NCBI GenBank assembly: GCA_949152475.1
Contig: OX424570.1
Span: 1,910,181-1,974,180 of the forward strand
Length of the DNA: 64,000 nucleotides
Source of the DNA: Terebella lapidaria
Taxonomy: Eukaryota; Annelida; Polychaeta; Terebellida; Terebellidae
Direction of reading: 5' to 3'
Shown here: positions 3,530 through 50,814 of the stretch, piece by piece
Layout: every line of letters starts with the position of its first letter
Position numbering within the stretch: the stretch's first letter is position 1
Made by a program: the position numbers and the translations under genes
Notes under the pieces: generated by a model
The model's input: the letters and a program-made list of their open reading frames with translations, nothing else
The model's database searches: none
Told to the model about the DNA's origin: nothing

Positions 3530-4245
3530 GTAAAAATATGGAAGGAATTGGGTTCAAAGCTTATACAAAAAATGGACGAATCTGGTGTTATTTCTGTTCT
3601 AGACTATGGTAGTGGTGTATGGGGCTATAACATGAATAATTCTGAATTAATTCAAAACAAAGCTATACGGTATTTTTAGGGGTACATAATTTTACAGCTG
3701 TTTGCGCGCTACAGGGAGAGAGTGGATGGTTACGATGTAAATATAGAAAGTACCTGAATATGTTGAGATTTTGGAATCGCTTGATAATAATGCCGCATGA
3801 ACGACTTACAAAACAAAAGAAACTGTACCACCTATCTGAAAATGAATGGGAAAACAGCGTTTTCTAAACCTAAATTACGCTGTTATGTTAAGTTAAAAAG
3901 TGAGTATAAAACAGAGTCTTATACTGCCAAAATCCGTTACCGATGCGAAAGATCTATTACTGCAAACTAAGGTGTGGTATTTTACAGTTGCATATCGAAA
4001 CAGGAAGATTTTATCAAACTTTGTGACAAGATAGGACAGGTCAAATATGTAAAAACAGTGATATTGAGGATGAAAGACACTTTATTTGCACTTGTTTAGA
4101 TTATTAAAAAAAAGAGATCTATATCATATAGCCAAACTATTGGACCCCAAATTTAAGGAAAACAAACTGCTTCTGAAAAGTTTATAATCATTATAAACAG
4201 TGGTTCTAAACAATAAAGTGTCATATTCTGTTTGCCGAACACGGA
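3530..4245 (+). pseudogene. Non-LTR retrotransposon 3' relic (RT C-terminal part)
   Basis: Translation from about 3582 gives VLDYGSGVWGYN, then after a frameshift near 3676 FLGVHNF, SGWLRCKYRKYLNMLRFW and RL. This pattern (conserved VxDYGSGVWG, then RAIRxFLGVHxF, then a GW..KYR..LxMLRxWNR block) is typical of the region downstream of the RT fingers/palm in a group of animal LINEs. The later part (to about 4245) is more decayed. The 5' portion, including the RT catalytic motif, is absent, as expected for a 5'-truncated insertion. An aataaa-like motif near 4212 may be its 3' end. The exact clade is not resolved. Confidence 0.65.
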
Positions 4246-4689
4246 TCTCGCTATATTTACTATTCATATAACTTTAAATACCTTCCACAGTTTCGTAGCA
4301 TGTAAAAGCAACGATGATAACTACTAGTATATCACATAGACGACTTGTGTAATGTTGAAAAGATGTCCATTACAATACTCATCACCATATTTTCTTGAGA
4401 ACTCGGTTTCTTCACTTGGTTTAGAAAACGAAACATGTTGTTCAATCCAAAAATACCATTATTTTGAGACGTAATTTATTATATTTTACCAAAACTACAA
4501 ACACCATAACAAACATCATGCTGAATCATATAAGTATATAGCCATAGCCACCAGAACTGATCCTGCGGCAGAGTTGTGTACAGTACTGTTCCACTTACTT
4601 TCAAGATACATTCACAAACCCATCTGCTACTCCAATATGAGAAAAGAGAATATTTATGAAAGATAGTTTAGTATATACACAAGAACTTC

Positions 4690-11435: not shown

Positions 11436-13505
11436 TTACTGACTAGAATAATGACTGGTCCATAGGTGAGTTTTTAACCTCCTCCTGAAAGAAAACAAAT
11501 TGACAGTGGTCCTGAGTTCTGCAGGCAACTCGTTCCACAGGCGAGGTCCAGCAACTTGGAACGCTGACGCGCCAACCTTCCTGTTGGGGATCTGTGGTTG
11601 GAGCTCGTTGTTCTTAGGCTGACGAAGGCGGGAGTCACGGGAATGCTTTTGTAGCAGTTCCTGGAGGTAGCGCGGGGCGGTCCCATGGAGGCACTTGAAC
11701 ACCATAGTGCAAATCTTGAAAACTATGCGAAGTTTGATCGGGAGCCAGCTCAGCTGCTTGAGAAGTGGTGTCACTCGTGTTATCTCACCCCGACGTGCAC
11801 AGGGTCGAAGGATGATTCTCGCAGCTCGATTTTGAATGCGCTGCAATTTATCAACAGTTGATAGTGGAGCATTTGTCAGCAGAGCATTACAGTAGTCAAG
11901 CCTGCTGATAACTACTGCATGGACAGCCCGCTTGCATGCATCTTGGGTAATATATTGCCTTATCCTGCCTAGTTGTCTCAGATGGTGGTTGCAATTCCTA
12001 ACCACCATAGACACATGTGCTGTCCTATTTAAGTGTGTGTCGAAGACAGTCCCAAGGTTTTTGACAGTATCATTCTTGGGTATGACACTGTCAGCGAGTT
12101 CCACAGCCATGTTAGGTGGGATCTTGGTTGTCGGATTTCTGAAGACAATGAACTCTGTCTTAGCGTCATTTATCTTGAGGCGCCATCGCAGCATCCAAGA
12201 TCGAATTTCAGACAGGCACAGCTCCAGTGAAGCTTTGGCATCGTCAATGCGATCTGGTTTGCAGGAGACATACACTTGCAGGTCATCAGCATACTTGTGG
12301 TATTGCATACCATGTCGGTTTAGTAGGCGCTCCAGAGGTGCAGTATACAGGTTGTAACTGATCGGCCCAATTACTGATCCTTGTGGACAGCCAGTCACAA
12401 GCTTTGCACTGTGGGATTTTTGAGAGCCTATCTTGATGTACTGATCGCGTTCCTGGAAGTAAGAGCTGTACCAGCGAAGAGCAGAACCTCTCACACCATA
12501 CTCCTCATCAAGAAGACGAATGAGCATGTCGTGATTGATGGTGTCGAAAGCGGCAGAGAGATCGATCATTGCCAACATCACTATTTGACCATTGTCCATA
12601 TGTGTTGCAATGTCGCTGAAGACCTTCAATAAAGCGGTCTCCGTTGAGTGTCCCTTGCGATACGCAGATTGAAACATTTCCACTTTGTTTGAGTTCTCTA
12701 AGTGTTCATTCAGCCGCTTGACCCCTATTCGCTCAAGTAGCTTGCCAACACTTGGCAAATTTGAGACTGGGCGATAGTTCTTCAGCATCAACTTGTCCAT
12801 TGACTTAGACTTCAGTAACGGTGTTACTTGTGCTGTTTTGAACATATCAGGAAAAATGCCTTCGTGGAAACTGGTGTTGAAAATTGAGACAAGTATCTCG
12901 ATGTGAGCGCTGATGGTTTTCTTCAGTAGATCTGTGGGGCAAGGATCTAGGCTGCACGTTTTTGAGTTAGATGACTTGACTAACTCTAACACCTCGTTCT
13001 CAGTCACTGGAGGTATTGTATCCATGATGACACTGCTGCTCATTTCAATGTCCGTAGCAATGTCAGTTGGTATTCCCTCGCTTATTATCACCTTCTCAAT
13101 GTCGGTTCTAATTTTGGAGATCTTGTTGGTGAAGAACTCCATATACCTGTCACATAGTTCCTTAGATGGTGGCTCGGGCAGACATTTTGTATCAGCTTTT
13201 GTCAGTTCGCTGATGACCCGAAACGTAGCACGTGGGTCTCGTGTAGCCAGGCGTTCTTCATAGTAATCGCGCTTGGCTTTTTTAATGAGGCGATTCACCT
13301 CTTGCCGATGATCACAAAAGATTTGGCGATGAATTTCCAGTTTTGTTTTCCGCCACTTCGATTCGTTAGAGCGCCGAAGCAACCGGGCTTCCTTGATTTT
13401 AGGTGTAACCCATGGAGATGTTCTACTGCGACGTTTGATTTTTGTCACAAGTGGAGCTTGTTCGTCAAATACCTCTGTGACTGCTGATAAGTACTCATTA
13501 GTCAA
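11436..13505 (-). CDS. LINE reverse transcriptase domain (L2 clade)
   Basis: Encodes a target-primed reverse transcriptase that would copy the element's RNA at a nick made by the linked endonuclease. Seen in order: the LINE linker WVTPKIKEARLLRR; SLDPCPTDLLKK (the L2/CR1-type SxxLDPxPTxLLK motif); NYRPVSNLP; FDTINHDMLIRLL; the QGSVIGP motif; and catalytic YADD at 12282-12293. The thumb follows with SRLDYCNALLTNAP and QNRAARIILRP, and the end has a WNELPAELR block. Only alternative codons start this frame at 13505; the true protein would be continuous with the endonuclease block upstream, from which a frameshift separates it. All catalytic motifs are intact. The 3' UTR after the stop at 11436-11438 is very short. 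Confidence 0.9.
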   Translation of the reverse strand: MTNEYLSAVTEVFDEQAPLVTKIKRRSRTSPWVTPKIKEARLLRRSNESKWRKTKLEIHRQIFCDHRQEVNRLIKKAKRDYYEERLATRDPRATFRVISELTKADTKCLPEPPSKELCDRYMEFFTNKISKIRTDIEKVIISEGIPTDIATDIEMSSSVIMDTIPPVTENEVLELVKSSNSKTCSLDPCPTDLLKKTISAHIEILVSIFNTSFHEGIFPDMFKTAQVTPLLKSKSMDKLMLKNYRPVSNLPSVGKLLERIGVKRLNEHLENSNKVEMFQSAYRKGHSTETALLKVFSDIATHMDNGQIVMLAMIDLSAAFDTINHDMLIRLLDEEYGVRGSALRWYSSYFQERDQYIKIGSQKSHSAKLVTGCPQGSVIGPISYNLYTAPLERLLNRHGMQYHKYADDLQVYVSCKPDRIDDAKASLELCLSEIRSWMLRWRLKINDAKTEFIVFRNPTTKIPPNMAVELADSVIPKNDTVKNLGTVFDTHLNRTAHVSMVVRNCNHHLRQLGRIRQYITQDACKRAVHAVVISRLDYCNALLTNAPLSTVDKLQRIQNRAARIILRPCARRGEITRVTPLLKQLSWLPIKLRIVFKICTMVFKCLHGTAPRYLQELLQKHSRDSRLRQPKNNELQPQIPNRKVGASAFQVAGPRLWNELPAELRTTVNLFSFRRRLKTHLWTSHYSSQ

Positions 13506-13585
13506 GGTATTCGTTGGTTGATTAAGCTTTATGTCTGCAAGCCTGCTGCAAAGGTTATCCTTGAATATTTCTTCAGAGAATTTTT

Positions 13586-14557
13586 TCAGCAGTCGGCACT
13601 GATATGATTCAGCACTTTTGTAGCCTGGTCGTCTTCTAATTTATCCCAATCCCACGTGATTGAGAGGTGATCAGATATTGCACTCTCGAAAACATTGATG
13701 TTGTACACAGAGGTGCGGCTTGCTACAATGTCCAGAATATGCCCATCCCGATGAGTTGGTTGCTGGACGTGCTGCTGCAATCCGTGTTCATCAAGAGTTT
13801 GTAGAAATTTTTTTGACTTTGTGGTGGATAATTCAAGGTGAAAGTTGATGTCTCCTGCAAGAAGCAAATGACCCGAGTAGCCAGTCAAACTCTCCAGGTA
13901 GTTCTCAAACTCCTCCGTGAACTTGGGGATGGATGACGATGGTGGTCTGTAGATCACTGCAAAGTGTTTATGAGATGATGCTAATTTCGGACAGCTGAGC
14001 ACAACACTCAAGTGTTCAAAAGTCTCATAATTCGTCTTTACAGTTTCACGGGCATCATACACACTGTCATAGATTAGAGCAACACCACCGCCTCTCTGTC
14101 CTGATATACGTGGCTTGCCAATGAACGAGAATCCATCTGGAGTCAGTTCTTTTGTGACATCATCTTCTCCTTGCTGCAACCATGTTTCAGTCAACATGGC
14201 AACAGAAACATCATTGTCTACAAGATGCTCTCTGACAGTCAGCGTCTTGTTTCTCACCGACCGTGTGTTCAGGAGCAGACATCGCTTGTTAGAGATGACT
14301 GTAGGATGTATCTTGATGAATGACGTAGTCCGACCCTGAGTTTGGTTTACACTCAAAGGCCTCCGTCCAGTCATTACTGGTATGGGCATGATATCCCTCT
14401 TGAAGCTATTGTCGGTTTGAACGCAGGGTCTCAAAGGCAAACGGCTTACTCTAAGCCGTTTAACTGTGGTCCAGGCTTCAGTATTAATCCTTTTCACAGC
14501 TCTGCTGCTAAGGCGGTATAACTCGGCAGCTGTATACATGATTCGATTAGTCAACAT
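13586..14557 (-). CDS. LINE endonuclease (APE-type) domain, frameshifted from RT
   Basis: The N-terminal half of the same L2-clade ORF2. Starting at the ATG at 14555-14557, it shows the APE/exonuclease III motifs in order: LNTRSVRNK (metal-binding Asn), LTETWL (catalytic Glu), VIYRPP, LLAGDINFHL (catalytic Asp/Asn) and ISDHLSI (catalytic Asp-His). All key residues are present, so the domain could have been active. The frame ends at 13586-13588 (SADC, then stop), where the RT frame is already open, consistent with a one-base indel rather than two separate genes. The basic N-terminal ~100 residues have no recognised domain. Confidence 0.88.
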   Translation of the reverse strand: MLTNRIMYTAAELYRLSSRAVKRINTEAWTTVKRLRVSRLPLRPCVQTDNSFKRDIMPIPVMTGRRPLSVNQTQGRTTSFIKIHPTVISNKRCLLLNTRSVRNKTLTVREHLVDNDVSVAMLTETWLQQGEDDVTKELTPDGFSFIGKPRISGQRGGGVALIYDSVYDARETVKTNYETFEHLSVVLSCPKLASSHKHFAVIYRPPSSSIPKFTEEFENYLESLTGYSGHLLLAGDINFHLELSTTKSKKFLQTLDEHGLQQHVQQPTHRDGHILDIVASRTSVYNINVFESAISDHLSITWDWDKLEDDQATKVLNHISADC

Positions 14558-17241: not shown

Positions 17242-17413
17242 GGGTAACCTCGAAAGGTTCGTGAGGCCCAAAATTATGACACAATTATGACGGAAATAGC
17301 CTATGCACATATGAAAACTATATCATAGGTTGTGTGACTATATGTAGGCGTGAAAATTACCTTTGGATAATCTGTGGGAGTAATCAGTGCAACAGGGTAC
17401 TATTGATAATATC

Positions 17414-18779
17414 ATGGATGAGCCAATTTCGTCGCCAGTCAGCCGTGAAGTTGACGTGGAAAAGGTGGTGTCGTACATTGAAAACTGCCATGCTGATCTC
17501 GTAGTTGCCCAGAGGAGCTTTGATAACAATTGCTCGACGCCAGCAAGTGCAACGAAACACCAACATGGGCAACAGAGAACCATTGACTCATTTCTGAGTC
17601 AAACGCCCGGTACACACGGTCTAACCCAGCCCAACGAAAACATCAGCGAATATAAACAAACTACTAGCAAGGGTCGCAAGCGCCAACGTAGAAAAGATTC
17701 TTCCTCGCCTATGTATGACGGATCCGTCTTGGACCGAATCGTGATCGACTTACGATCCGAATTCCAAGCCAGCGTAAAAAAACTAAATGAAAAACTAATG
17801 AAAACTAATGATTATTTGCACCGGAATAGATAAACAAAAACGTGAGATTGCTGAACTGCAGAGTCATAACACCGAATTGAAAGCACATGAACGGCTTATG
17901 AATGGTAGAATCTTACGACTAGAGAAACTCGTAGATGACTTGCATGAAGAAAACCTTTCCTTACAAGCGAGATCGATGAAAAAAAACTTGGTATTCACTG
18001 GTATTGCTGAACGTCCTGATGAGAGTGTTAGAGAGGTACTCCGCGCTTTTTTCAGAGATAACCTCAAGATGACTGATGATGAAGTTACCCGAGTGAACAT
18101 TGTCAGTACACATCGAATGGGCTTGAAACGAGAAGGGTACCGTCGTCCGATAGTCGCTAATATAATCAAGGATTCTCATGGACTCATAATGACTGCAGCG
18201 AAAAATCTCGAAGGCAAATCTTTTAGCATCTATCCTCAACTACCCAGGGAGTTGGCTGAAAGAAAAAGACAGCTGTTAGACAGGTACAAGGATGCGAAAC
18301 GCTCAGGGGAGACTGCCAATTGGTCTGGTGCATCGTTGTACATCAACGACCAGTGTTTCGAAGTGAAGCGGGCCAAGGTCAAGGATCTTACCGTCTATAT
18401 TGCCAACCGAGCACTGGAAATGAAGGTTGTACGTGCCCCGCCTAGCTGGCACAGCGGGAGCGGTTTCCAGGGTAGTCGAGTCGACATCTCATCCCCAGAC
18501 GATGCCATTCCGGCACTACATGCGATAATGCGCGACCATCGCTGTGCAAGAGCGTCCCACAATCTCTACCAATATCGTTTTGCTGGCCCCGATGGGATCA
18601 CAGAGCACTACGAAGATGACGGCGTGTACGGCGCTGGCTTCAAGCTGTTGGAACAACTGCGTGATAACGAGGTAACTGGAACTTTGATATGTGTGACAAG
18701 ATGGAATGGACTTAGGCAGCTTGGTCCTGCAAGGTTCGATCATTTTCGTGAAGCGGCTGATCAGGCACTAATGATGTAA
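17414..18779 (+). pseudogene. LINE ORF1-type protein (coiled coil + RRM-like) with C-terminal IMPACT/UPF0029-like domain
   Basis: Two overlapping frames (17414-17833 and 17808-18779) make one coding region broken by a single indel near 17810-17833, in a slippery stretch of three aaactaatga repeats. Part 1 begins MDEPISSPVSREVD, has a basic patch (KGRKRQRRK, NLS-like) and enters a coiled coil. Part 2, numbered from 17808, has the coiled coil to ~55; an RRM-like LINE ORF1 domain from ~59 (KKNLVFTGIAERPDE, then RVNIVSTHRMG); a C-terminal nucleic-acid-binding region to ~205 (RRPIVANII, LPRELAERKRQLLDRYKDAK); and at ~222-322 an IMPACT/UPF0029-like domain (ASHNLYQYRF, EDDGVYGAGFKLLEQL, VTRWNGLRQLGPARF). 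The last block fits most of the UPF0029 signature (G..LL..L....V......R...G..LG). L1-type ORF1 proteins chaperone RNA; IMPACT proteins bind GCN1 and modulate GCN2. The fusion's role is unknown. No ORF2 follows. Confidence 0.75.
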
Positions 18780-21700
18780 ATACTTTGCATATTGAGTAAT
18801 TAATGAACTTGCTCTAAAAATCTAATTGACCAATTGCTGATACTGTATCATTGTCATCCTATGAGGCACTGCACGTAACGATACTCATTCCCATGAAGTA
18901 CCAGTTATATTTGTCAAAGTCTATGTTATTGATATCTAGGCACTACAAATCTGACGAAAAAAGCAATAAAAAATCCCCGTCTAACGGTCTTCCAGGATCG
19001 GTTACCCCCATTGCTCTCGCTTGATATCCTGCAATGATTTTGGATATGGAATATATTGAGGGAAATATGAAACAACAACAAAAACTTCCATGTTTCATTA
19101 AATTGAGGGATTTTCACACACACGTCATTATTTTCGTCCTTGATCTGTACCTGTGGAATATATGCCCTCACCAAGCACAGAAACCATGCCATAACGGTAT
19201 CAAAATGTGCTATATACCCCCCCCCCCCCCTCCCTAGCACCTACTGCCATGTTCAGTATGAGTATTTATTGGAATTATGAACTATGGAGTTTGCAATCCC
19301 AAGATATCATTATAAAATTTATGGAAAGATGATCATGAATGCTAAGCTTATGTGATCATGTATTTCTGGACACCCCACATATGTATAAATGTATATTCTG
19401 ATCAAACCCACCCTGCCATGTGATAATATGCCAAACTTAAAATGGAGTCAATAATTTGTATTTCAAAAAATTAGCATGACTATAAATGTACTTCTTACCT
19501 TGCATGATATTATTGTGTGATCATACTTATGTGCATATATAAGACAACACATATATTATATGAAATATTTTGACTGCCTATTCTACATGCCATGATGTAA
19601 CATAAGAACTGATTGGAAAATACATATAAATAACATAAAAAGATATTGTATTTCCAAATGTTAATACAAAATGTATGTATGTACAGATTTCCTAGCTTGT
19701 CATGCACATGTAAACATACTTATGAAGATATTCCTGTGATGAAATTCATATGATGTACAAAAGCAATCCCTTGATCCCTGCCTAGCATGTCTCACATGTC
19801 TTGCATGCCATTGTGTAGTTACTGAAAATATATCTTGTATAAAAATTATAATAGGAATAATATAACAAAAAATAAGATAAAAATTATTATGTAACCACAT
19901 TTATGTGACTATCCAGAACTGTTGATATGGGGCATCAAATATAAATTGTATTGTGAAATGTTACAATATTGGAAAATACATATTTATATTGTATTATCAA
20001 ATGTCATCACAAAATGTATGTATGTAACTGAATTCCTACTTGTCATGTATATTATATGATTATAACCATGAGATGTTACCCTAAGTGGATTTAGTTAGAA
20101 ACGTATCCATCCTTGTATGTAAAATAAATAAATAAATAAATAGAATAAAATATAGAATAAAATATAGAATAAACATGTTCATCTGATCACACTCACGTGA
20201 AGACTCATATTGTATACGAAATAGTTAGGCTTTGCGTCATGCCATCGAGTAAATTAATATGAAACAGAGTGGACAATTTGATGCAATGGTCATCATGTGC
20301 TCTGATTGTTCTTCTTGTAAACATAAATATAAATATATTTTTGTGCACATGCAGAGAAATCTAAATGGCGAATAGAGCGTACTTATTTTAATTTTATTCC
20401 ACAATTCCTTTTGTATAAAAAGTATCAATACTTTAAAATATATGTGTAATCACTGTATTTTAACGCTGGTGTGTTCAAGTTTGCACGAATGTACTCAACT
20501 GCACACATATTGATTCAATATACGTATGTCTGTAGGCAAGATGCATTGTATATCGCAAAATGTTAACCAACTAATGAAAGGTTCTCACATTCAAACGACG
20601 TTCAACCTTCACTTCTGTTGTGTGAAAAAGATAAAACGTGTCGATATTTCTGTCGATAATATAAACGAATCATACTTCCATCAACCACACACACTGGTGT
20701 ATATCCAAAATCAACAGGTGTTAGTATTTGATATATTATCCTACGATATAATGTATGTAGATTGGTTATGTTTTCTGTAGATATATTTTACTCTATTGCA
20801 CGTCATTTACAACACGTAGGCACCTTTTTCAAAATTCCTCTAATAACTGTCATTCCCGTGTCCCAGACTTGAACCGACCAAGTACCGCTCATTTCTCGGT
20901 GGAAATAAGCTCCTTAACATGTTTTGAGTCATTTTAGCTGAACACCTAGGGCAAGGTCCCGGTTCGACCCCAAACAGATCGTTGTACTGCTCAAAACAGA
21001 CAGGGCCAAACAAGGTTTGTCCTAGTGAAATTGAGCTAGATAGTTCTTCAACTAAGTTGACCGACTTATTGGTCAAGTATTTATTTTCACTCACTCTTCA
21101 TATCGGGGAGTATATATCGACTCTATCTTGAATACTCAACTTCATATAATTGTGTTGTGAGATTGGCACCTTGGTCTAGTTTCTCACTGATGACTTTTAT
21201 GACGACATTTGCATTAGACCAATGAAATACTCAGATTATCAAGACTGACGTCTGTTTACGTCAGGGTCGTACCGCATAGACATAGACTGTTTTTTGTTTC
21301 CTTTTTTCTGTTTTTGTATGTCATCGGCAGCAAACCAAATAGTAGCGATAGAACCAGCAAACTAAGCAAACTAAGTAGCGACAGTGAATTATTATGTGTG
21401 AGAGAGAGAAAATAGAAATGTACATTGCCGCTTGTACACAATGTAGTAGTACTCGAGACATATCAATAGTTTTCACCAGAACTGACTTAGTTATTGTCTC
21501 CATGCACATTGTATAATATGATCATATACGTGTATTGTATTGATGTAACTACTGTTTTAGTATCTCGTCATGTTTTCCTGCTTGTATTATTTGTAATGTC
21601 AACAAACTGTACCTTAAAGAACCTCACGTTCATGGTTATGAACGTAACTTCACGACCTCACCTTTCAACTCAGGCCAATAAATAAACTCCGTCAAAAAAT

Positions 21701-21890
21701 TTCAAGCTTGGAAAACTTCATCCATGAGAAGTGAAACTAAATTTTGGTAACGCCTTAATAACGCCAGAGTTTGCATGGTGACTTTGTTGTCAAGTTTGCA
21801 GTTGTCCAATGTTAGATAATTATGAGCCTCTGATGACCGCATTTTTAATATGGTCCTCGCGATTACCGGTAGCTCAAACCGATTGTATAT
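18780..21890. other. Gene-free AT-rich stretch with degenerate long-period repeats
   Basis: No coding domain is seen. Between about 19330 and 20240 a diverged block recurs: ttggaaaatacata..caaaatgtatgtatgta..tcct..cttgtcatg appears at 19611-19703 and 19969-20046, with vaguer relatives on either side. This suggests a decayed tandem array with a period near 350 bp. There is a C run at 19217-19230 and an (aaat)n/(aatatag)n microsatellite at 20121-20175. Nothing is recognised at 20200-21890. Confidence 0.5.
20121..20175 (+). repeat. AT-rich microsatellite
   Basis: Runs of aaat units are followed by repeated aatatagaataaa units. Confidence 0.85.
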
Positions 21891-21899
21891 GTATATGCT

Positions 21900-24800
21900 T
21901 TTGTGTTTTTATCCGTTATCTTTTCTCTTGACCCTTTTCTGTTTCTTCTTTCCCACCAGTGCTGTGATGATTGGACTCGGCAAGTACATGTCACACGATG
22001 GAGGGTAGCGTTACTCTAGATCAGATACAGGACGGTCAGGAATATGACCTGTCAGCTTTATATCTTGATGATGATGAATCCATATTTTTGAATAGACTCA
22101 ATAACTGTATATATTATGATCCCAAAACATTCAGACAAGAGATTGGTAAATCACTAGGAAATTGTTTATCCATTATCGTAATGAACTGTCAAAGTCTAAA
22201 TGCAAATTTCAATCAATAGTTAATCTACTAGCAGACCTTCAGGTGAATTGCAATGACTTTGATATAGTTGGTTTGACAGAAGTGTTCAGGATACCACATG
22301 ATGTTACTTATAAATTAGATGGGTACCAGACTTTAATATATAAGGTCCGGGAAAATAATGACTATGGTCATGGGGGTGTTGGGATATTTATAAAAGAACA
22401 TTTGCAATATACAGTCAGGAACGACTTATCTGTTTTTTTACCTCATGTATTTGAGTCTATATTCGTTGAAGTAACAATAAATAAGGAATCAACCATTATA
22501 GGCAATATCTACCGACCAAATACTGCACCCAGGGCAAATATTGATATTTTTATGTCCACCTTACATGAACTTATTGATATTATTAACAATGAAAATAAAA
22601 CAGCATATCTAATAGGAGATTATAACATAAATCTACTTAAATATGGGAGTGATATTAAAGTTAAACACTTTCTTGACAACGTCATCTCGCAAGGATTCGC
22701 CCCTGTAATAAATAGACCTACACGAGTTACTACTGATAGCGCCACACTAATAGATCAAATTTTTCACAAACGATCCAACTATAAATTCAAACTCTGGAAT
22801 AGTCATAATTAATGAAGTAACAGATCACTATCCTGTCTTTCACATAATTCCAAGTAACTCCGGAATAAATAAAGACATTCTTAAACCAATGAGATCACGA
22901 CTAGTAACTGACAATAAAATTGCGGAATTCAAAATGAAACTGGCTAATACTAATTTCAGCTCCATTATGGAAATAAATGATACTAACGACGCTTATGAGG
23001 CATTCACTTCGATTTATGAAAGTATATATGATAGCGTTTTCCCCGAAGTAATCATTAAACCTCCCAAGAAACATAACAAACGTGAACCATGGATGACCAA
23101 AGGATTACTTATTTCTTCTATAAAAAAAAACAAATTATACAAAAAGAAACTAAATAAACCTTCTGCCATAAATATCCATCGTTATAAGATGTAAAGTACT
23201 GTATACAAAAGACTGTTGAAAATCAGAAAACCAAAAATTATAACGATCTCATTGAATTAAATAAAAGAAATGCAAAGAAGACATGGGAAATCCTCAGAAG
23301 ATTACTACTACATTTAATAGTCATTTTGTAAATTTAGGTACCAACATTGACAGCTCACTTCCCAAATCAACACAGTCCCCATTATCGTATTTGAAATTTA
23401 ATAATCAAAATACAATGTTTGCAACGCCACCAATACCTATAGAAATTCTAAATCTTTCAAAAAAGTTAAAACCCAAAACGAGTGTTAGTCACGATAACAT
23501 TTCCATGTACTTACTAAAAGAAACTTTACCCCCAGATACTTTGCCCACTTTCCCACATCTTCAACAGATCGATAGAGCAGGGAGTCTTTCCAGATAAACT
23601 TAAAATCGCCAAAGTCATTCCCATTTATAAATCCGGTGATAATCAAGTATTTGAGAATTACAGGCCAATAAGTTTACTTTCCCCATTTTCCAAATTATTA
23701 GAAAAAATAATGTGTGTTCGCTCACAAAGTTTTCTGGATAATAGTGATATATTGTATAAACACCAATACGGATTTAGAAAAAAACACAACACTTCAACCC
23801 TTGATTCACTTACTCAAGCACATCTCCCAATCCCATAATAAACCTACTAAAGCTTTCACACTGGCTCTTTTCATTGATTTGTCCAAGGCTTTCGACACCG
23901 TCAATCATAAAATATTATTAGATAAATTACAATAATATGGCATTAAGGGAAGCTGCAATGGATGGCTTGAAAGTTACAACAATATTGCGAAATAAACAAA
24001 CACAAATCTAGCTATCAAAATATACAATGTGGAGTTCCACAGGGTTCAGTTCTTGGCCCCACATTATTTTTATACATCAATGATCTACACATCAATGATC
24101 TACACAACTGTACTGGCCTTAATTTATTGTCATTCGCAGACGATACAACGTTATTTACATCAGGACAAGATCTTTGCGCTACTACATATCTAGTGAATAC
24201 TGAATTGGAAAAAGTAAATGAATGGTTAGTATCCAACAGGTTAAAACTAAATCTTAGTAAAACGAAATATACCATATTTAGGCCATCCAACAAAAAAGTG
24301 AAAACATCTGATATCCGCCTCAAAAACAATGTACTACACCATATGATGAACAGACAAATGAACTGAACAAATTCCTTGGTATTTGCCTTGATACAAATTT
24401 AACATGGAAACACCACATAAATTATATCTGTACTGAAATATCTAGATCCTTATATTAACTCGTATCAAGAATTTCTTACCCGAAACTACCCTTAAAACAT
24501 TATACCACAGTCTGATCGAACCCCATTTGAACTATGGCATAGAGGCTTGGGAAAATTCTATTCATAAGGGCCGCATCAGCAAATTACAAACAAGAAAATG
24601 CATCATAGCTGCCCAAAAACCAACATCGCCTGGTGAAAAAAAAAGATTCTATGTTGGTTTAGGCACTTCCTATTTACCTGCATATATCACTATCCTCTCT
24701 ACACGGAATATACGTTGCCGGAAACTTCACGAATTTGTTCAAAATTGTGGCCAATTTTTTCTTTGCTCTATATTATACACTAAATTTACTTTTGCATTCC

Positions 24801-24900: not shown

Positions 24901-27645
24901 CCTAAATTCATTCAAAACATATATGTGTATATTCAAATGCAGCAACAATCTAGACATGGTATTACACATTTATTTGCCACTTCCTAGCATTTCATGCATA
25001 CATTGACATTTGATCTGTGGTGCCAAAGTGATACCATGTTGGTAACCAACAACATGGAAACAGAATATTAATAGCAGTACTATGTTACTGTAATGCCTGA
25101 CTGTGACCAGGATTTTCCAATAACAATGGGTCATGATTAAAATCCCATATAGTAACATTTACTACTGTACAATTTTGTTATTCATTGCCATCCAGGCTGT
25201 ACGAAACTTTCATCACATATATATTAATACTCTATGAGTTTCTCAAATGCAAATAATGATGGATAGTACATACGGTACACGAGACAATCCTCAAGTTTGG
25301 GACCGACCGTTTCACTATGACCAATATGCCGATGCAATGGTGATTTTTTTACAAGTACCCACTTACGAAGCGGGTACGGTCTAACGGTTAACCGGTTACG
25401 AAAATCGCTACTCCTTCTACCACTAGATAGTATGTTGCGCACACTATACATGAACTTTTGACAATGATGATCAATAATCATATAGATGAACTTTATTTTA
25501 TACGGTATAGCATGAAACAATAAACACTAGGGAAAAGGGAACTAGGGAAAGGGGGGCTTAAATATATATTCATATATGTATAATGGTTATTTTCGATCAT
25601 GATTGAATTCAACGTTATAAATATTACAAATGTATATAGACGTCTATATGTGCATGTCTAGTGTTGTGTATTATATATTGTATAAATGTTCCTGCACTTG
25701 TTTTGTATAGCACGGAGGAGACCCCCTCGTGGCTACGGCTGTGGGGAATCCTCCTAAAACAAATAAAGTTTACATTTACATTTACAATAAACACTAGCCA
25801 CAAGGTTATTGACCGACAATGAATCATAGATGATGAGGTGACATATACAAATGCTGATGAACATTGGGCAACAAAAACAAATTATCATTATCATACCATT
25901 GTCAGTTATTTCATATATTGTACATATTACATGATAATACGCAAACATTACAACCAAACATTGGTCCTGACCATCCAGACAGCTTATGTTTAAATGCCTG
26001 GAGATTTTTTTAGCACTTTTTCTATTTTGAGGTAAACATTCCTTCATGACTGACACTATTCAAGCCAAAGAGCCTTTGATTCAAGCCATATCTTGTAGTT
26101 TTGCACTTTAACGTACATATTGAGACATTTCGGAGTGCGTAACAATTTTCTTTGACATTTAATAAATCATGGTCAATAGTGCCTGTAATTTGTTACTCAG
26201 GACATGACAACATTATAGATCTATTAGCCACTTGATGAAGTTTGATTTGGTTGGTCTTGGCCTCTCATCTTCCCTTCGGTGGGGTTTGTCAGTAGATGTG
26301 TTTCCTTCTATGACATAGCATTCATGTTGACATGTAGAACTGAAACCTGAAATTACATGTGAGATTAAGTTGTAGAGTGAACTATTCACAGTATTCAGTT
26401 TTGTGCCATTATTACGTTGACAGTCAGAACCTGTATTTTTGGGATCTGTAGAATATCTGACAGATGATGACAGCACGGTATTTGCACAATATTCCAGTTA
26501 CAGTAAACTATAGATAATAGACACATATAATATACGTACTGTTATTCTTGATCCTTGCAGGTGGCTGCTCTGCACTACGCACTAGTACAGTTTCTTTCAG
26601 GCTCAGATATTTGGTTGTTGCTGTGTGCTGACTCGCCTGACTGGCTGTCTGAGTGTCTCAGCCTGTCTGTAGTGTAGCCGCAGCCTGAGCGACGCAGAGG
26701 CTCTGCCAGAGCTGTAAGCTTACTGTCTGTAGAGTAGTACTAGTAGTATATCTGTTATGCAAGTTGAAGTTGATCTTGCAGTCATACTTTGCCTTGGCTT
26801 TGGTTTGTGGCAAATGCTGAAATGACAAAATGATTCCAAGTGTGATTGTGATGTTCACAGCTAGCATAGATATATACTGTATACAGTTGCAAAGTCGATA
26901 AAATAAATATCTCTTCATAACTGAGATCCGCCGTTGCATCTAGATCCGCCTCAAATGTGGCAGAGAGCACGTGCGATGTTTTGCACTCATTGAACCTGAG
27001 ACTGACTCACTGAGTGAGGCTGGGCTGGCAACGTAACCACGGCACGGGTGATGTATTCTAGCATCATCATGTTTCATACATTGGGGGTAAAGCCCCCAAA
27101 CCCCCTAAACTAGAAAACTTTATCGAGATCTTTCACTTACCTTCAATTTTCTACCATAATCGTAACAAACGGAGCTGGAAAATCACACGCTTCTGAAATC
27201 AAAACAAAACTAGCGCCAAGTGACGCACGCGACTAGATCTACCTTGACCTTTGTTGTTGCTAGGGGCGTGGTGCAATGACGCGATATGATTGGTTCCTAT
27301 GCAAAAGCTATATACGCATAAAGATGACGTCATTCGATACGGTGCACAATAGTTATAGCAATGCAAAAGCGACATTGCAATGAAATACATATTGAAAAAT
27401 AAACTGAATGAGCTGTTGCGACCATATTATCGCAACCAAAAGTAAGTGTATGAATCACACTACAAAAATTTAGGTGAATATGGGTCGTAGATTGGGGGGT
27501 AAACCCCCCAAACCCCCCTAACCTACACAACTATCCAGACGGCTTCAGCCAAAATGCAGTATTAGCTGCGCCATATTTGGGTCCTCCATGGCTCCATGGA
27601 TTTGTGAATACACTACCAAACATGGCGCCTAGCCGCTTCGCGGCT
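24901..27645. other. Gene-free stretch with LINE-tail-like and C-rich repeat motifs
   Basis: No protein is recognised. At 25705-25790 a gaggagaccccctcgtggct..ggggaatcctcc..aataaag segment ending in atttac repeats looks like the 3' end of a LINE with a microsatellite tail. At 27079-27110 and 27490-27523 a C-rich motif of the form ttgggggtaaa(g)ccccccaaaccccc occurs twice in direct orientation. Each copy can itself fold into a hairpin. A GC-richer patch lies at 26560-26760. Confidence 0.45.
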
Positions 27646-27647
27646 AG

Positions 27648-28392
27648 CGATGTTGGTAAAAAGAGCCATCAGGACAATTACAAAATCTAGATTTAATGCC
27701 CACACTGAGCTGTTATTCAAAAAGCTAAATATCTTAAAATTTGACGATTTGTTCGAATACCACGTAGTGATATTTATGTATGACTATATTGACTCAAATT
27801 TACCAGCATTTTTTGCAAACTGTTTTACCTTAAAATCTGATATCTCAAAGAGAGAAACACGTACTAAAAATACATTTTATATTGAAAGACCCAGGACTAA
27901 CTTTGCCTCCAACCTACCGAATTATATCTTTCCCACTATCTTCAACAAATATCCCACATAATTTTTCTCACTAAGATCCAAATCGTCCCTCAAACATAAG
28001 TTAAATCAATATCTATCAAGTAAATACCAAAGCGAAGTTCGCTGTGAAAATAAAACATGTATACATTGTAACTCTTCACTGTGTCCGTCCTGTGTCTGAA
28101 GTACAGAAACGTTTCATGTGACATCAACGGGTCCTTTCATCACTAGCACTGCAGTTTTCTTCTCTTTCTGTTGTACTATACCTTACTCCTTTATTCCTTA
28201 CTTTCTCTCTGTTTCTTTCAGCACGGGCCCATGGGAGGGTGCACATTCATCTCTACCCGGGGAGGGGTGGCGGTGCTAAGGGGGCTTCGCAGGAAGACGG
28301 CTTCGTGCCATGTGTTGCCCGAACAACATCCAATTTGTACATATGTTTTGTTGTGATGCTGTTCAAATAAATTACTTACTTACTTACATACT
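27648..28392 (+). mobile_element. CR1-group LINE 3' fragment with (ctta)n tail
   Basis: The translation RAIRTITKSRFNAHTELLFK..NILKFDDLFEYHVVIFMYDY matches the C-terminal region of Crack/Daphne-like LINE RT proteins, after which the frame decays near 27960. The rest is a pyrimidine-rich 3' UTR (28150-28220) ending in caaataaa followed by ttactta repeats (28362-28395), the microsatellite tail expected for CR1-group elements. It is a separate 5'-truncated insertion from the 21.9-24.9 kb copy. The strongly palindromic agccgcttcgcggct immediately upstream (about 27630) belongs to the preceding sequence. Confidence 0.75.
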
Positions 28393-44899: not shown

Positions 44900-46240
44900 G
44901 TTATCTCCACAACTATACATATTTTGTTAGTTGAGTGCTGACACGTCGGTTATTGGCGCCAGAGTAGTCATAATTGAGGGTGGAAACCAGAGAACCTAGA
45001 GAAAACCCACTTGCCCCCACCAGGCAACCATATACCACTCCCACATGCTGGCAAAAAGACCACGCCTGAATTGGGTGTATTAGTGGGAAACCATGGCAAT
45101 ACGTATAGCCATACATCCTGTTCGGTAATTGACTACAAGCAATTAGTTATAGCTATTGGGACGCTATCAATTCCAGTGTTAATTATCGACAAAATCTGAG
45201 AGTGAACCAGTCTGTATATATAAATTCATGGGTGTAATTACCAGGTGGATAATATGAGGTCATTATTGGAATAATAATATTGCATCTATAACACATTAAA
45301 GACCTAGTAGCATGCCGATGAAAGTGCTTTTCATTTAGTCCATTATGAATAGTTATCTGTAAATTTTACAAATACAATCAATGGGTTTCGAGATATTGAA
45401 TCAAACAGTTACTCCTTCCGTAAATTGCCGAAGATTTTGATCACGATTTTAGTATGGGTCGCGTGGTTTGTGACGTCATTTGAGGCAGTACTGAAAGTAC
45501 ATGTAGCCAGCAAGGTAAACTGCATGTTGCATATTCATTCTCCTTGTGTATGTTTTGACAATTCAAGTGAACGGGTGAGATGGTTGGAGTACGGCATTTC
45601 TTGTCTTGATATTTAGAATCAGTACTATTCATTCTTCCAGAAGGGAGGTTTGTTGAACTGCAAGATGTCCAGTATTTGTTGGTTTTCATGTGTTTTCTTT
45701 TGAATCTCATGCATTTTGGAGTGGTTTTCTATCTTTGAGCTGACCGCCCAAATTACGTGTTTTACGTTTTTGGCCAGCCATCAAAGCACATTTTGCCTCA
45801 ACTGACGTCACGATTACGGAAACTGCCGAAGCTATTTTTTTCATCGGCATGAGAAGGTGATTGCAATACTGGCTCAATATACTCGATTATATGTCGCTGT
45901 TATTAATTACCAAATAACGCGAACATCTTTTTTATCACCAAATGTCCACAATGCCTTTATCTGAACAGGAATAAAACCATATAATGGTACCTTGCTACTA
46001 TGACTTTAAACCGAGCCCTGCTCATATAATTATGTATGGGAATACTCGCCAGGTTCGTGTTTCATGGAATATACCAAATCAGCTCATATCAACTGAGCCG
46101 ATTGTCTTCCACTGCATAGAAATAATTTTCCATGGTTATGTGTAAACACAATTGATTGGTGTTTCAAAAAATGTCCAAAATCCCGAGTTCATCCATCAGT
46201 GAAACACGCTTTTTGGCCGTAGTTTTGTTTTAAATATTCA
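44900..46240. other. Gene-free spacer
   Basis: No coding domain is recognised. A gtggaaaccagagaaccta..gagaaaacccact phrase at 44978-45012 recalls a low-complexity repeat motif, but its identity is uncertain. Confidence 0.4.
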
Positions 46241-47035
46241 GATCATGTTGCCCAATAACTATACACTATAGACCCGTGTCCCTTTTGAGCGCAGTTGGGA
46301 AAACCATGGAAAGATTGGTTTTCAGCTCTATGATGTCATTTCTCGAGGAAAACTCTCTGCTGTCAGTATGGCAATCTGGATTTATACCAGGTAGATCTAC
46401 GGTTACACACCTCGTAGAAATTTATAATAGTTTTTGTGAAACTGTGTCGAGAGGGAGCGAAATCAGGGCTATATTTTTAGATATAAGCTATCGATAGAGT
46501 GTGACATAGCGGTTTATTGTTCAAACTAAAGAAATATGGTATACGTAATGATTTGCATGTATGGTTCACTGACTATCTGGACAATCGCACACAACGAGTT
46601 GTCATCAATGGGCAATCGTTAAGCTGGTCACCTGTAAGTGCGGGTGTGCCTCAGGGATCCGTTATTGGGCCGTTGTTATTTCTTGTCTTTATTAATGATA
46701 TCACGCTTGTAATATACGTCTCTTCGCAGAATTTTCATTGAAGTAAATGATAGAGAGGAAGGGGCGATTTTGATCAATGAGGATCTACAAGCGATTTCAT
46801 CATGGGCTGACAGGTGGCTGGTCACTTTCAATGCTTCAAAATCCGAGCCTCTCGTTATATCCAAGAAACGTGATCTCGGGCACCATCCCCCTGTATTTTT
46901 GAATGGCTCCATTATTGAGGAGACTACCAGTCATAAACATGTTGGCGTAACGTTCACTAGGGATCTTTCTTGGAGCAGCCACATATCAGACCTTGCTTCT
47001 AAAGCTACTAAGGTATTGAATGTTATCAAGCCATT

Positions 47036-49305
47036 GATTGGTTGAACGTCTTAACAATGTTTCAACTCCAAAAGATTATTGGAAAATTGTTAAGAGTTTG
47101 CTCGGGGCAAAAGTAAAATCAGGGGTGCCTACATTATGTGACAACGGTCAGGTTTACTCTACAAATACCGAGAAGGCCACTTTGTTAAATGAATACTTTG
47201 CAGAGCAGTCTTCTATCTTTGATTTACCTAGTGCTTTACCACCTTTGCGATATTTGACTACTGAACGTTTACGAAACATGACCGTCGACACTGCAAGTGT
47301 CCAGAATATCGTTGATACTTTAGATGTCAACAAGGCTAATGGACCAGACGGCATAAGTAATCGCTTATTAAAACATACATCATCATCCGTCTGTAGGCAT
47401 CTAACGCATTTATTCAACCTGTCATTGGAAAGTGGAAAGTTTCCACATTGTTGGAAGCACGCTAATGTTACCCCTTTGTACAAAAAAGGTGACCATCAAT
47501 CTAAATCGAATTATAGGCCAGTCTCTCTTCTGTCAGTGGTTGGCAAAATACTCGAGCGCTTGGTTTTCAAACATCTATATTCTTATTGTGTTGCAAATGA
47601 TCTGCTCACTTGGCGTAATTCGGGATTCAAGCCTCTGGATTCGGCGATGAATCAATTAATTCTGATAACGCATAATATCCATCGCGCAATAGATATGAAA
47701 CAAGACGTTTGCATGGTTTATTTAGACATATCAAAAGCCTTTGACAGAGTATGGCATATTGGGCTACTACATAAGTTAAAAACATTTGGTGTTGAGGGCA
47801 AAATACTAAGCTGGCTTGACGACTATCTTTCAAATAGAAAACAGAAAGTTGTCATAAATGGACAGCAATCCCCAGGTATCAAAATTAGATCCGGGGTACC
47901 GCAAGGTTCTATATTAGGACCATTGCTATTTTTGATATTCTTAAATGACATTACTTTAGATATAAATAGTGAAATTTTCTTGTATGCGGATGACACAGCA
48001 CTCATGAAAGTAATTACGGATCCCCGTCAAAGCATCCGAGAAATAAACTTGGATCTAGAGACAATAAGTCAATGGGCTAATCAGTGGGCTGTTACATTTA
48101 GTCCATCAAAATCCAAGATGATGATTTTTTCTAAAAAACAATCTCACGATAATTACGACAATGTTGTTTTCGACAACGAAACTGTGAATCTGGTTAAGGA
48201 ACATTGTCACCTAGGTGTTATCTTGAGTGAGGATTTATCGTGGTCGAGTCATATCCGCAATCGTATTGCAAAAGCGGGTCCTATGATAAATATGCTTAAG
48301 CGCATGTCCAATATAATACCCCGTAAATGCAAAGAAAATATATACAAAACATTTATCAGGTCGGTTCTGGAATATGGTTGCTTGTTGTATCACAACTGTA
48401 CAGGGAATATGACCAATATCCTAGAAAAGTGTCAACGGTCAGTTGCCATTACTTGCACTGGGGCTTATTCATCTGTAAGCAATAGTGCCTTACTCTCTGA
48501 GTTGGGCTGGCCTACACTGAAAACGCGTCGAGACTATTTCCAGATTTCGACTATGTACAAAATCTTGAACGGGCTCACACCGCGTTATTTGAGAAATATT
48601 TGTCCGGATTTTAGATCTGATTCCCACGATCATAGTCTCCGTAATTCGCATGATCTCAGGATCCCAAACGCTAGAACCGTCTCTTATAAGAAATCATTCA
48701 TTCCATCCGCTTCAAGAGCCTGGAATGGTATTGATGTAAACCTCAGGAATATACCGACACTTCCATTATTCAAGAAACGCTTGAAAGACTCTTTTTTTCC
48801 TGATAGTAATCCACTGTACTCGTATGGCATTGGCCGTGCGCCTGTATTTCAAGCACGGTTAAGAATGGGACTTAGTGGTCTCAACTCCCACAGGAAAAAG
48901 TATAATTTCATTGCTGGTTCTGTTTGTGCATCCTGTGGGTTTCGAAATGAAGATTCGGTACATTATATGATTGATTGTCCTGCCTATGTAGCTGCCCGCA
49001 CAAAGTTGTTTGCCACCACCGCCCCCCCTCCTCTCAAGCATATGGCCTGAATTAAATATGAACTCAATGTCAAACGCTGAAAAGAAACGCATCACTGACA
49101 TTTTTCTGTTTGGACACAATTTATGTGATGCCAATTGGAATAGAGAGTTATTTGACCAAGTTCATGAATTCATATTAAAGACGAATCGATTTTTGTAAAT
49201 ATTTGAAAATACGGTAGCAGATTATGTTTGGTTTCTCGCTCGTTCTGGACGAGGAGAATTACCTTGTGCTAAATTGCGTGTAGTAATCCTCGTAAAATAA
49301 ATTAC

Positions 49306-49348: not shown

Positions 49349-50814
49349 CCATTTAAATTTAAAATGGACAGATTATCTTTGGAACGCTTATATATTTCCT
49401 GCATTAGACCTATTATGGAGTATGCAGATGTTGTTTGGGCTGGGGCCATTTTCACTGATTTATCAAAACTTGACAAAGTTCAAAAGGAAGCCGCTAGACT
49501 AGTAACAGGCGCCACTGCCCGCTGTAATTCAGCCGCGTTAATGGCTGAATTAAATTGGATTCCTCTCTCCGAGGGAAGAACACGTCATAGACTATGTCTT
49601 TTTTATAACATTGTCAATGGTCATTGTCCACAATATTTGATTGAATGCTTGCCGGAATCTGTAGGCCAAAGATCAGCTTATGCTTTACGATCATCCTCTA
49701 ATTTCACTGCTATACCCTCTCGACATAAGTATATGTCATCCTCTTTTTTTCCGTCTACGATTGCGTCTTGGAACGCATTGCCCATAGACGTACGTAATGC
49801 TACTAACAGAAGGATCTTCACTCACAATCTTTCCACTAATGATACTATGCGCAATGAATCCCCTGTATTATAGGGGTGATCGCTTTGCCAATGTTCATTT
49901 AGCCCGTATGAGAATTGGCTGCAGTCTTTTGAATGATCACTCACATACTAATTTACATATGGCGGATAGCGCAGCTTGCCGATGTGGCTATGTGAAGGAA
50001 GACCCAGACCATTATTTTTTTATCATGTCCACTTTTCAATGATGAAAGACAAATGCTATTCGATAGATTGGGTAATATACAAATTAGTTCATCTGACATC
50101 TTGATGCATGGAAGCAGATATTATGATTACGCTCCGAATATACTTATCAGTGACGCGGCTCTAGATTTTATTGGGCAAACTAAAAGATTTGAAGTCGCGT
50201 AGCGAGTCCCTTATATCTAAAAAAAGTGGATATCATAATATAATTGGTAATTTTAGACAAATTCAACTCATAAAGCGATCCTTAAGTACGTTAATGTCTT
50301 GATACAGGTGTCACATTTTGTGCTTCTGACAGCGATCATATTCAGCTCATATTTTTGTCATAGAACGATAATGAAATGATAATTTTATATTGTGTCACTT
50401 TGTGTACATAGTATGTGTGTTTCTGTTTTTCTCGTTGTGTTGAGACCCAGTAATATAAGCTTTTGCTTGTTTGGGGATCCTTAAATAAAGTTTATATATA
50501 TATAAAAAAAAATCACGAGAGGAATCAGGCGACAGAATCATCACAAGTATGTGACAGGGTGGTGCAAAAGGCTCCACGATTCCCCACCAATTTCATTAAT
50601 ACTATCAGTATCGTCCACATATTCTACTGAACTTTTCCAAGATGAATTTACATATCAGAAACACTTGGTTTTAGGAGAATCCTTTATTAAGGGAGTGTTT
50701 TATTGTATCTGGAATTTACATTGTCAGTATGCTTATCAGCTTATGCTGAACCGAAGAGTTATATATGTGTGCCAGGGCCCATTCGGGGTCCGCCCAATTT
50801 GGTAGTCAGCATTC

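Follow-up and report, generated by a model that had tools for sequence, protein, structure and literature searches.

UPF0029 (IMPACT-family) domains in the ORF1 proteins of several LINE lineages of one genome

The window (the whole 64,000-nucleotide stretch of DNA analysed here) carries on its forward strand a broken LINE ORF1 followed by broken ORF2 remains, an arrangement that identifies one old, decayed LINE. The N-terminal part of ORF1 lies at 17384-17833, with an ATG at 17414; residues 38-166 of the intact ORF1 at a related locus, L009, match 17396-17797 at 45% identity. This part lies in a frame apart from the rest of the protein, a 325-amino-acid open frame (17802-18779) encoding the end of a coiled coil, an RRM-CTD-like core (approximately 17970-18440, drawn from alignment and below the PF02994 cut-off), a UPF0029 or IMPACT 'ancient' domain (PF01205; residues 219-323, 18456-18770, found by Pfam, phmmer and profile searches) and the stop. 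The frames switch inside a 10-11-bp tandem repeat of 3.1 copies (17778-17811), so the window copy is frameshifted; a preliminary description of this DNA had read a single region from 17414, and that reading is not upheld. Beyond a 3.2-kb inter-ORF spacer (18780-21976), which has long counterparts in the relatives L009, L013, L016 and L017, lie the broken frames of an ORF2 endonuclease (21977-23230; 38-57% identity to the ORF2s of L013, L014, L016 and L017) and reverse transcriptase (RT) (23277-24619; up to 67% identity to the L014 ORF2), with C-terminal remains of the same ORF2 kind about 3 kb past the RT part (27629-28072). The single piece of the RT remains that was scanned matches RVT_1 at E = 7.4e-4, below the cut-off. 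We regard it as close to certain that the feature is the ORF1 of a decayed APE-type LINE with the order coiled coil, RRM/CTD-like core and UPF0029. Elsewhere in the window, 11451-14275 on the reverse strand and 46234-49017 and 49364-50036 on the forward strand also resemble these LINE ORF2s.

The translation of 17802-18776 matches PF01205 at E = 1.4e-16, with 60.9 bits against a gathering cut-off of 27, and this is the only Pfam family above its cut-off. Independently, a phmmer search of the Protein Data Bank aligned residues 214-323 of the window ORF1 to 6bqi, 'Protein IMPACT homolog', at E = 2.4e-8; the next two chains (E = 0.0053 and 1.3) look like chance. A chance match to UPF0029 is ruled out by the Pfam E-value, the independent structure match and 150 other PF01205 rows in the genome, and the earlier claim that an ORF1 core is fused to an IMPACT-family domain stands. 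A profile built from 17 sequences found 6bqi at E = 5.1e-24 and the bacterial chain 2cve at 4e-5. The best solved relative of the element domain is 6bqi, and on these profile scores the domain is nearer eukaryotic IMPACT than bacterial 2cve. The part matched is the C-terminal 'ancient' domain of IMPACT as defined in PMC4503747, so the label 'N-terminal domain' given earlier has to be dropped.

For comparison, the window ORF1 and 16 relatives were aligned as RRM-type ORF1s (alignment A1, 17 sequences), and seven esterase-type ORF1s formed alignment A2. PF01205 is above its cut-off in 17 of 17 and 7 of 7, both sets having been drawn from ORF1 and PF01205 searches that already favour the domain. 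The motifs DDGE and R-W/Y-F/Y-G-G, present in both 6bqi and 2cve, we take to be the family signature. In the window this signature is incomplete, DDGE appearing as DDGV and R-W-F/Y-G-G as R-W-N-G-L. DDGE is kept in the other 16 of the 17 A1 sequences. Six of 17 RRM-type ORF1s and all seven esterase-type ones have the R-W-F/Y-G-G loop in full; the clade of the window has R-W-N/D-G-P/L, and in L024-L027 S replaces the first G. Invariant in all 17 A1 sequences are DDG, R-W, a later G and R-F, and of these DDG and R-W are invariant across both alignments.

Selection on the domain was gauged by a Nei-Gojobori count in 17 ORF1 pairs (14 between families and 3 within), which overlap in lineage and so are not independent. 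In 14 of 14 between-family pairs UPF0029 differs less at nonsynonymous sites than either the adjoining RRM-CTD or esterase part or the N-terminal part, some of the margins being small. Synonymous sites are saturated in 11 of these 14 pairs; in the other three the omega of UPF0029 is 0.135, 0.066 and 0.224, two of them near saturation. Within families, where changes are few, omega is 0.143, 0.918 and 0.67, and UPF0029 is not the least changed part in two of the three pairs. Taken between families, the counts indicate that the UPF0029-bearing order is under purifying selection.

The domain occurs in four ORF1 architectures, in which coiled coils and zinc knuckles, except the knuckle of L039, were read by eye. 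In one, shared by the window and the A1 members L009-L023, UPF0029 is C-terminal to a coiled coil and an RRM/CTD-like core. L024-L028 add to this order a tail of about 85-190 residues that is proline-rich by eye. UPF0029 precedes an esterase in L030, L036, L037 and L038 and follows it in L034, L035 and L039. The SGNH/GDSL esterase family PF13472 is above its cut-off in L030, L034, L036 and L039 and slightly below in L035, L037 and L038; a zinc knuckle is above its cut-off in L039, and PHD matches in L030 and L034 fall under theirs. The RRM label of the first two architectures is supported only indirectly. PF02994 matched none of the 17 RRM-type ORF1s, each scanned singly, so the RRM-like core described earlier is not recovered by that family. 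The indirect support comes from hhalign, which aligned the RRM-type profile with the ORF1s of L050 and L051 at a probability of 99.5, through coiled coil, core and CTD; these two themselves score 20.1 and 19.7 bits against PF02994 (cut-off 22.4; E = 8e-4 and 1e-3).

L050 (414-1673) and L051 (534-1856) are RRM-type ORF1s that end in a NADAR domain (PF08719, E = 4.4e-34 and 1e-28). NADAR was above its cut-off in 150 of 150 scored rows, out of 973 candidates in the genome, many of them in frames of 400-490 amino acids. Five rows (C1:45228679, C15:248262, C1:92822432, C9:17956500 and C11:4144450) lie, by eye, within about 3 kb upstream and on the same strand of ORF2s that are 46-50% identical to the L027 ORF2, which suggests that ORF1s of the NADAR type and of the UPF0029 type are both used with a single RT kind.

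All copy counts come from one genome of 761.6 Mb, and those of repeats are lower bounds. The 325-amino-acid window ORF1 has at least 125 matches (123 scored of 679 candidates) at 24-69% identity besides itself, many of them intact frames of 380-570 residues, and the domain order recurs many times within the genome. Neither of the two outcomes named earlier as refuting the fusion was obtained: PF01205 matches significantly, and the order is not confined to this locus. PF01205 was above its cut-off in 150 of 150 scored rows (of 381 candidates), 102 of them in open frames of at least 350 residues. By class, 83 rows are RRM-type, 31 esterase-type and 36 neither, the esterase class having been assigned with 38 of 85 esterase-type matches, selected by eye and for the most part extending into the esterase. 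Five of the 36 were read: L040, L041, L044 and L045 resemble RRM-type ORF1s, and L052 (C2:40626400-40627900) carries UPF0029 (E = 1.7e-21) after an N-terminal region that has no Pfam match, in two overlapping frames, and is possibly a further architecture; the unclassed rows are thus not one class. Forty of the 125 ORF1 matches have no PF01205 row nearby among the 150 listed, and may rank lower or lack the domain. Searches of viral contigs and of non-animal genome contigs found no relatives. UPF0029 frames are locally repeated, in three copies each, at C2:50609505-50619194 (about 4-5 kb apart) and C16:17908475-17931453 (11.3 kb apart). The same assembly has a full cox1 on the 15,973-base contig C438 and a second, partial copy at C417:44633-46450, perhaps a nuclear mitochondrial insertion. 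Translation of a mitochondrial cox1 makes sense with ATA as M, AGA as S and AAA as K, in keeping with the invertebrate code.

Twenty loci of 10 kb each around related ORF1s (L009-L028) were inspected for what accompanies the fusion, and in 15 of them an ORF2-type open frame lies downstream. Pfam recognized an endonuclease or RT in L009, L013, L015, L017, L018, L021-L025, L027 and L028; the ORF2s of L014, L016 and L019 were recognized only through alignment with Pfam-positive ORF2s. L020 has a broken ORF2 sequence, and none was seen in L010, L011, L012 or L026 in the part of the frames that was scanned. Two layouts occur. The next long frame follows ORF1 after 20-360 bp in L018, L019 and L021-L023, and ORF2 lies 2-4 kb past ORF1 in L009, L013, L016, L017, L024, L025, L027 and L028. 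Spacers of the longer class, which occur in two of the groups, span L013:3311-6310, L024:3410-5496 and L017:3347-7251; that of L013 contains a 138-bp tandem repeat of 4.8 copies (3924-4599). A third conserved gene in the spacer was considered and rejected: the two sense frames of at least 200 amino acids that were seen, a Tc1/mariner-like transposase inside L015 and a 209-residue frame in L016 that matches no family, do not support it. In L009 a unit recurs every 157 bases, at five listed places, before ORF1 (634-1379) and again after ORF2 (9784); it could represent an array of promoter-type monomers or a satellite that served as target.

Target-site duplications were looked for in twelve loci as exact repeats, 11 bases or longer, shared by the 5' flank and the stretch past ORF2. 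In L024 a 12-bp sequence at 1523 recurs at 9615, immediately after a run of 41 A; a 13-bp match elsewhere lies away from the A run. In L028 the repeated sequence is 15 bp long and stands at 1192 and, at the end of a run of 30 A, at 9285. Both duplications enclose ORF1, spacer and ORF2 (about 8.1 kb). The other 10 of the 12 loci showed no repeat pair adjoining poly(A), five of them having fewer than 650 bases after ORF2. L013 and L014 share 98% identity across 5.8 kb that comprise spacer and ORF2, and L019 and L021 do so across 5.0 kb, which indicates recent movement in some groups. ORF2 neighbours, near-identical copies and target-site duplications with poly(A) thus establish that mobile elements carry the ORF1-UPF0029 fusion.

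We compared the histories of the ORF1 parts and of ORF2. In the midpoint-rooted UPF0029 tree of 32 rows, with strong support for 7 of its 29 inner branches, L024-L028 group with L044 and L045 (99/100), the window belongs to a group of seven (97/92), L018-L023 form no supported clade, and ten esterase-type rows and IMPACT 6bqi come together, their branches being long (93/97). In the RRM-CTD tree, of 19 rows, L024-L028 (98/98), the window group (97/98) and L018-L020 with L022 and L023 (90/95) are recovered, with the two NADAR-type ORF1s outside (100/99). These trees fit, and do not prove, one fusion in RRM-type ORF1s followed by inheritance as a block. The RT tree (16 rows, all from loci of this genome, the groups being identified by locus only) unites L024, L025 and L028 (100/100), L018-L023 without L020 and with L027 (98/99), and L046 with L047, which are the ORF2s of L030 and L035 (99/98); L009, L013, L014, L016 and L017 fall outside the other groups and are not one supported clade. 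The L024 ORF2 aligns with human L1 ORF2p end to end (E = 1e-104, residues 4-1170), and those of L022 and L013 only in part (E about 1e-16). Placement in the L1/Tx1 group was found for L024 alone, which L025 and L028 join in the RT tree; the window belongs with the L013-type ORF2s, not with this L1-like set. By these groupings UPF0029-bearing ORF1s are present in at least three supported RT lineages, one of them L1-like. The fusion noted earlier is thus real, and it is not a single one: several architectures occur in several LINE lineages.

One family departs from this congruence. The ORF1 of L027 groups with the L1-like-type set (RRM-CTD 98/98; UPF0029 99/100), and its RT groups with L018-L023 (98/99). 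Two neighbouring elements mistaken for one are ruled out, as the pairing recurs: four of five L027 ORF1 copies are followed on the same strand, after about 3 kb, by an ORF2 of at least 99% identity, and for the fifth copy the distance downstream is about 16.5 kb. The chimera therefore moves as a unit, and its pairing of an ORF1 of the L1-like set with a non-L1 RT implies that ORF1 was exchanged between LINE lineages. Reticulate evolution of ORF1 is known for the Jockey superfamily (PMC4120745).

The function of the ancient domain is described as unknown (PMC7140605) or elusive (PMC4503747) even in IMPACT. The motifs that are invariant between Yih1 and YigZ are found in loops that share one face of the protein, which suggests a conserved ligand, and the Yih1 regions sufficient for binding ribosomes, actin and Gcn1 are described as containing the linker rather than as the ancient domain alone (PMC4503747). 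We propose that the feature is an element ORF1 whose UPF0029 domain serves as an RNA- or ribosome-facing binding module, a joint reading to which we give a probability of roughly 0.42, lowered from 0.45 because only 6 of 17 RRM-type ORF1s have a full R-W-F/Y-G-G loop. ORF1p would multimerise through its coiled coil and coat element RNA with its RRM-CTD core, and UPF0029 would add a second conserved binding surface around the loops shared with IMPACT (DDG, R-W, G and R-F). That surface may link the ribonucleoprotein (RNP) with a partner that is widely conserved, RNA or a translating ribosome being the likeliest candidates; such tethering could favour assembly on the RNA under translation (cis preference), or else shield the RNP or direct its localisation. 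The mechanism by itself, UPF0029 as an extra RNP- or ribosome-facing binding module, is tentative and in our judgement slightly less probable than the joint reading.

Several other roles can be set against a binding module. UPF0029 might act on RNA or nucleotides as an enzyme or as a binder of small molecules, and would then belong with the other metabolic-type domains that ORF1s take up. The ORF1s of this genome do recruit such domains, an esterase alongside UPF0029 and NADAR in related RRM-type proteins, and the invariance of DDG and R-W in both alignments would suit this role. We know of no enzymatic activity of UPF0029, however, and the RWxGG loop varies among RRM-type ORF1s. With a function called elusive or unknown in the literature (PMC4503747, PMC7140605) also counting against it, we judge an enzymatic role unlikely. 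If UPF0029 were a structural cap or an oligomerisation module that lends stability to the ORF1p C-terminus and binds no specific ligand, this would explain why it is C-terminal in the clade of the window, why L050 and L051 have NADAR at that position, and why one signature loop is free to vary. The domain also sits before or after an esterase in other ORF1s and is internal in L024-L028, however, and we hold a cap to be less likely still.

The preliminary description had pointed to GCN1 and GCN2, and UPF0029 might accordingly damp this stress signalling so that translation of the element continues. IMPACT and Yih1 do inhibit GCN2 (PMC5054600, PMC7140605), and the element domain is nearer IMPACT than the bacterial chain in the profile search. 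Binding to GCN1, however, is attributed to the RWD domain (PMC7140605, PMC5054600), which competes for Gcn1 and, overexpressed alone, inhibits the starvation response (PMC7140605). The 24 ORF1s scanned singly, 17 of the RRM type and 7 of the esterase type, gave no match to RWD (PF05773), and the genome's 14 RWD rows all lie outside the listed ORF1 copies. The missing RWD weakens the suggestion, and we consider damping improbable, even more so than a cap. The 4-kb neighbourhood of one of the RWD rows, L048, inspected for a host IMPACT donor, has no UPF0029, only repeats. As to origin, the preliminary description had set an element that captured the domain beside a host gene that acquired an ORF1 core, in which case the locus would not be an element gene. 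That mobile elements carry the domain is supported by ORF2, duplications and copies. The window copy taken alone has no intact ORF2, as a host gene would, and against this stand the many copies with a single frame ahead of ORF2, the 98% identity of copies that lie on different contigs and target-site duplications with poly(A); we give a host gene almost no credence at this locus, and for the family as a whole ORF2, duplications and copy number refute it. Returning to the binding module, a wider version of it would make UPF0029 a building block of LINE ORF1s in general, captured on more than one occasion, exchanged by L1-like lineages with others and engaging a widely conserved translation or RNA-handling partner; we regard this as doubtful, though likelier than any of the rival roles.

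ORF1 is the less understood half of LINEs, and the present architectures add UPF0029 as a further building block across several ORF1 layouts and LINE lineages, extending the modular and reticulate picture of ORF1 evolution. LINE ORF1s may also be viewed as natural experiments on UPF0029, which offer a new handle on a domain of unknown function; should the general-module reading be true, the job of the ancient domain of IMPACT could be read from its place in the LINE RNP. In automatic annotation such copies may pass for 'IMPACT family' genes, so apparent IMPACT expansions need to be checked for LINE origin. A literature search of partial coverage, to which Repbase did not belong, found no published fusion of ORF1 with UPF0029, IMPACT or YigZ in transposable elements, and no mention of a UPF0029 or IMPACT domain in that sense was found in two papers on molluscan elements (PMC11203168, PMC10294476).

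The element proteins resemble several known systems and are identical to none. IMPACT and YIH1 share the PF01205 domain with them, whereas no RWD was found in the scanned element ORF1s and their partner domains are those of ORF1p. The YigZ family (TIGR00257) aligns in its N-terminal part, with 21.6 bits for the window and up to 42.4 (L035), but 5 of 5 proteins fall far under the curated cut-off of 167.95 and the matches stop near position 110 of 205. Five ORF1 types are known (PMC4120745). Type II ORF1p (coiled coil, RRM and CTD; Transposase_22, PF02994), known in the L1, CR1, L2 and R1 clades (PMC4120745), has the same order of coiled coil, RRM-like and CTD-like parts before an APE-RT ORF2; here, PF02994 is not reached and a UPF0029 domain is added after the CTD-like part. 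Type IV (esterase) and PHD ORF1p occur in CR1/L2 elements (PMC4120745, PMC3905857), and all seven esterase-type relatives, though not the window, resemble Type IV in having an SGNH/GDSL esterase above or just below its cut-off; they differ in carrying UPF0029 before or after it. In the Jockey-superfamily set as presented in PMC4120745, Type IV is confined to vertebrate groups, whereas the present genome has an invertebrate-type mitochondrial code. The nearest precedent, to judge from PMC12477816, is NADAR in the ORF1 of Tx1 LINEs of the Pacific oyster Crassostrea gigas, a domain found also in Ectocarpus Gypsy elements: there, too, a conserved cellular domain is joined to a LINE ORF1, and NADAR-type ORF1s exist in the present genome as well, but the domain is PF08719 rather than PF01205.
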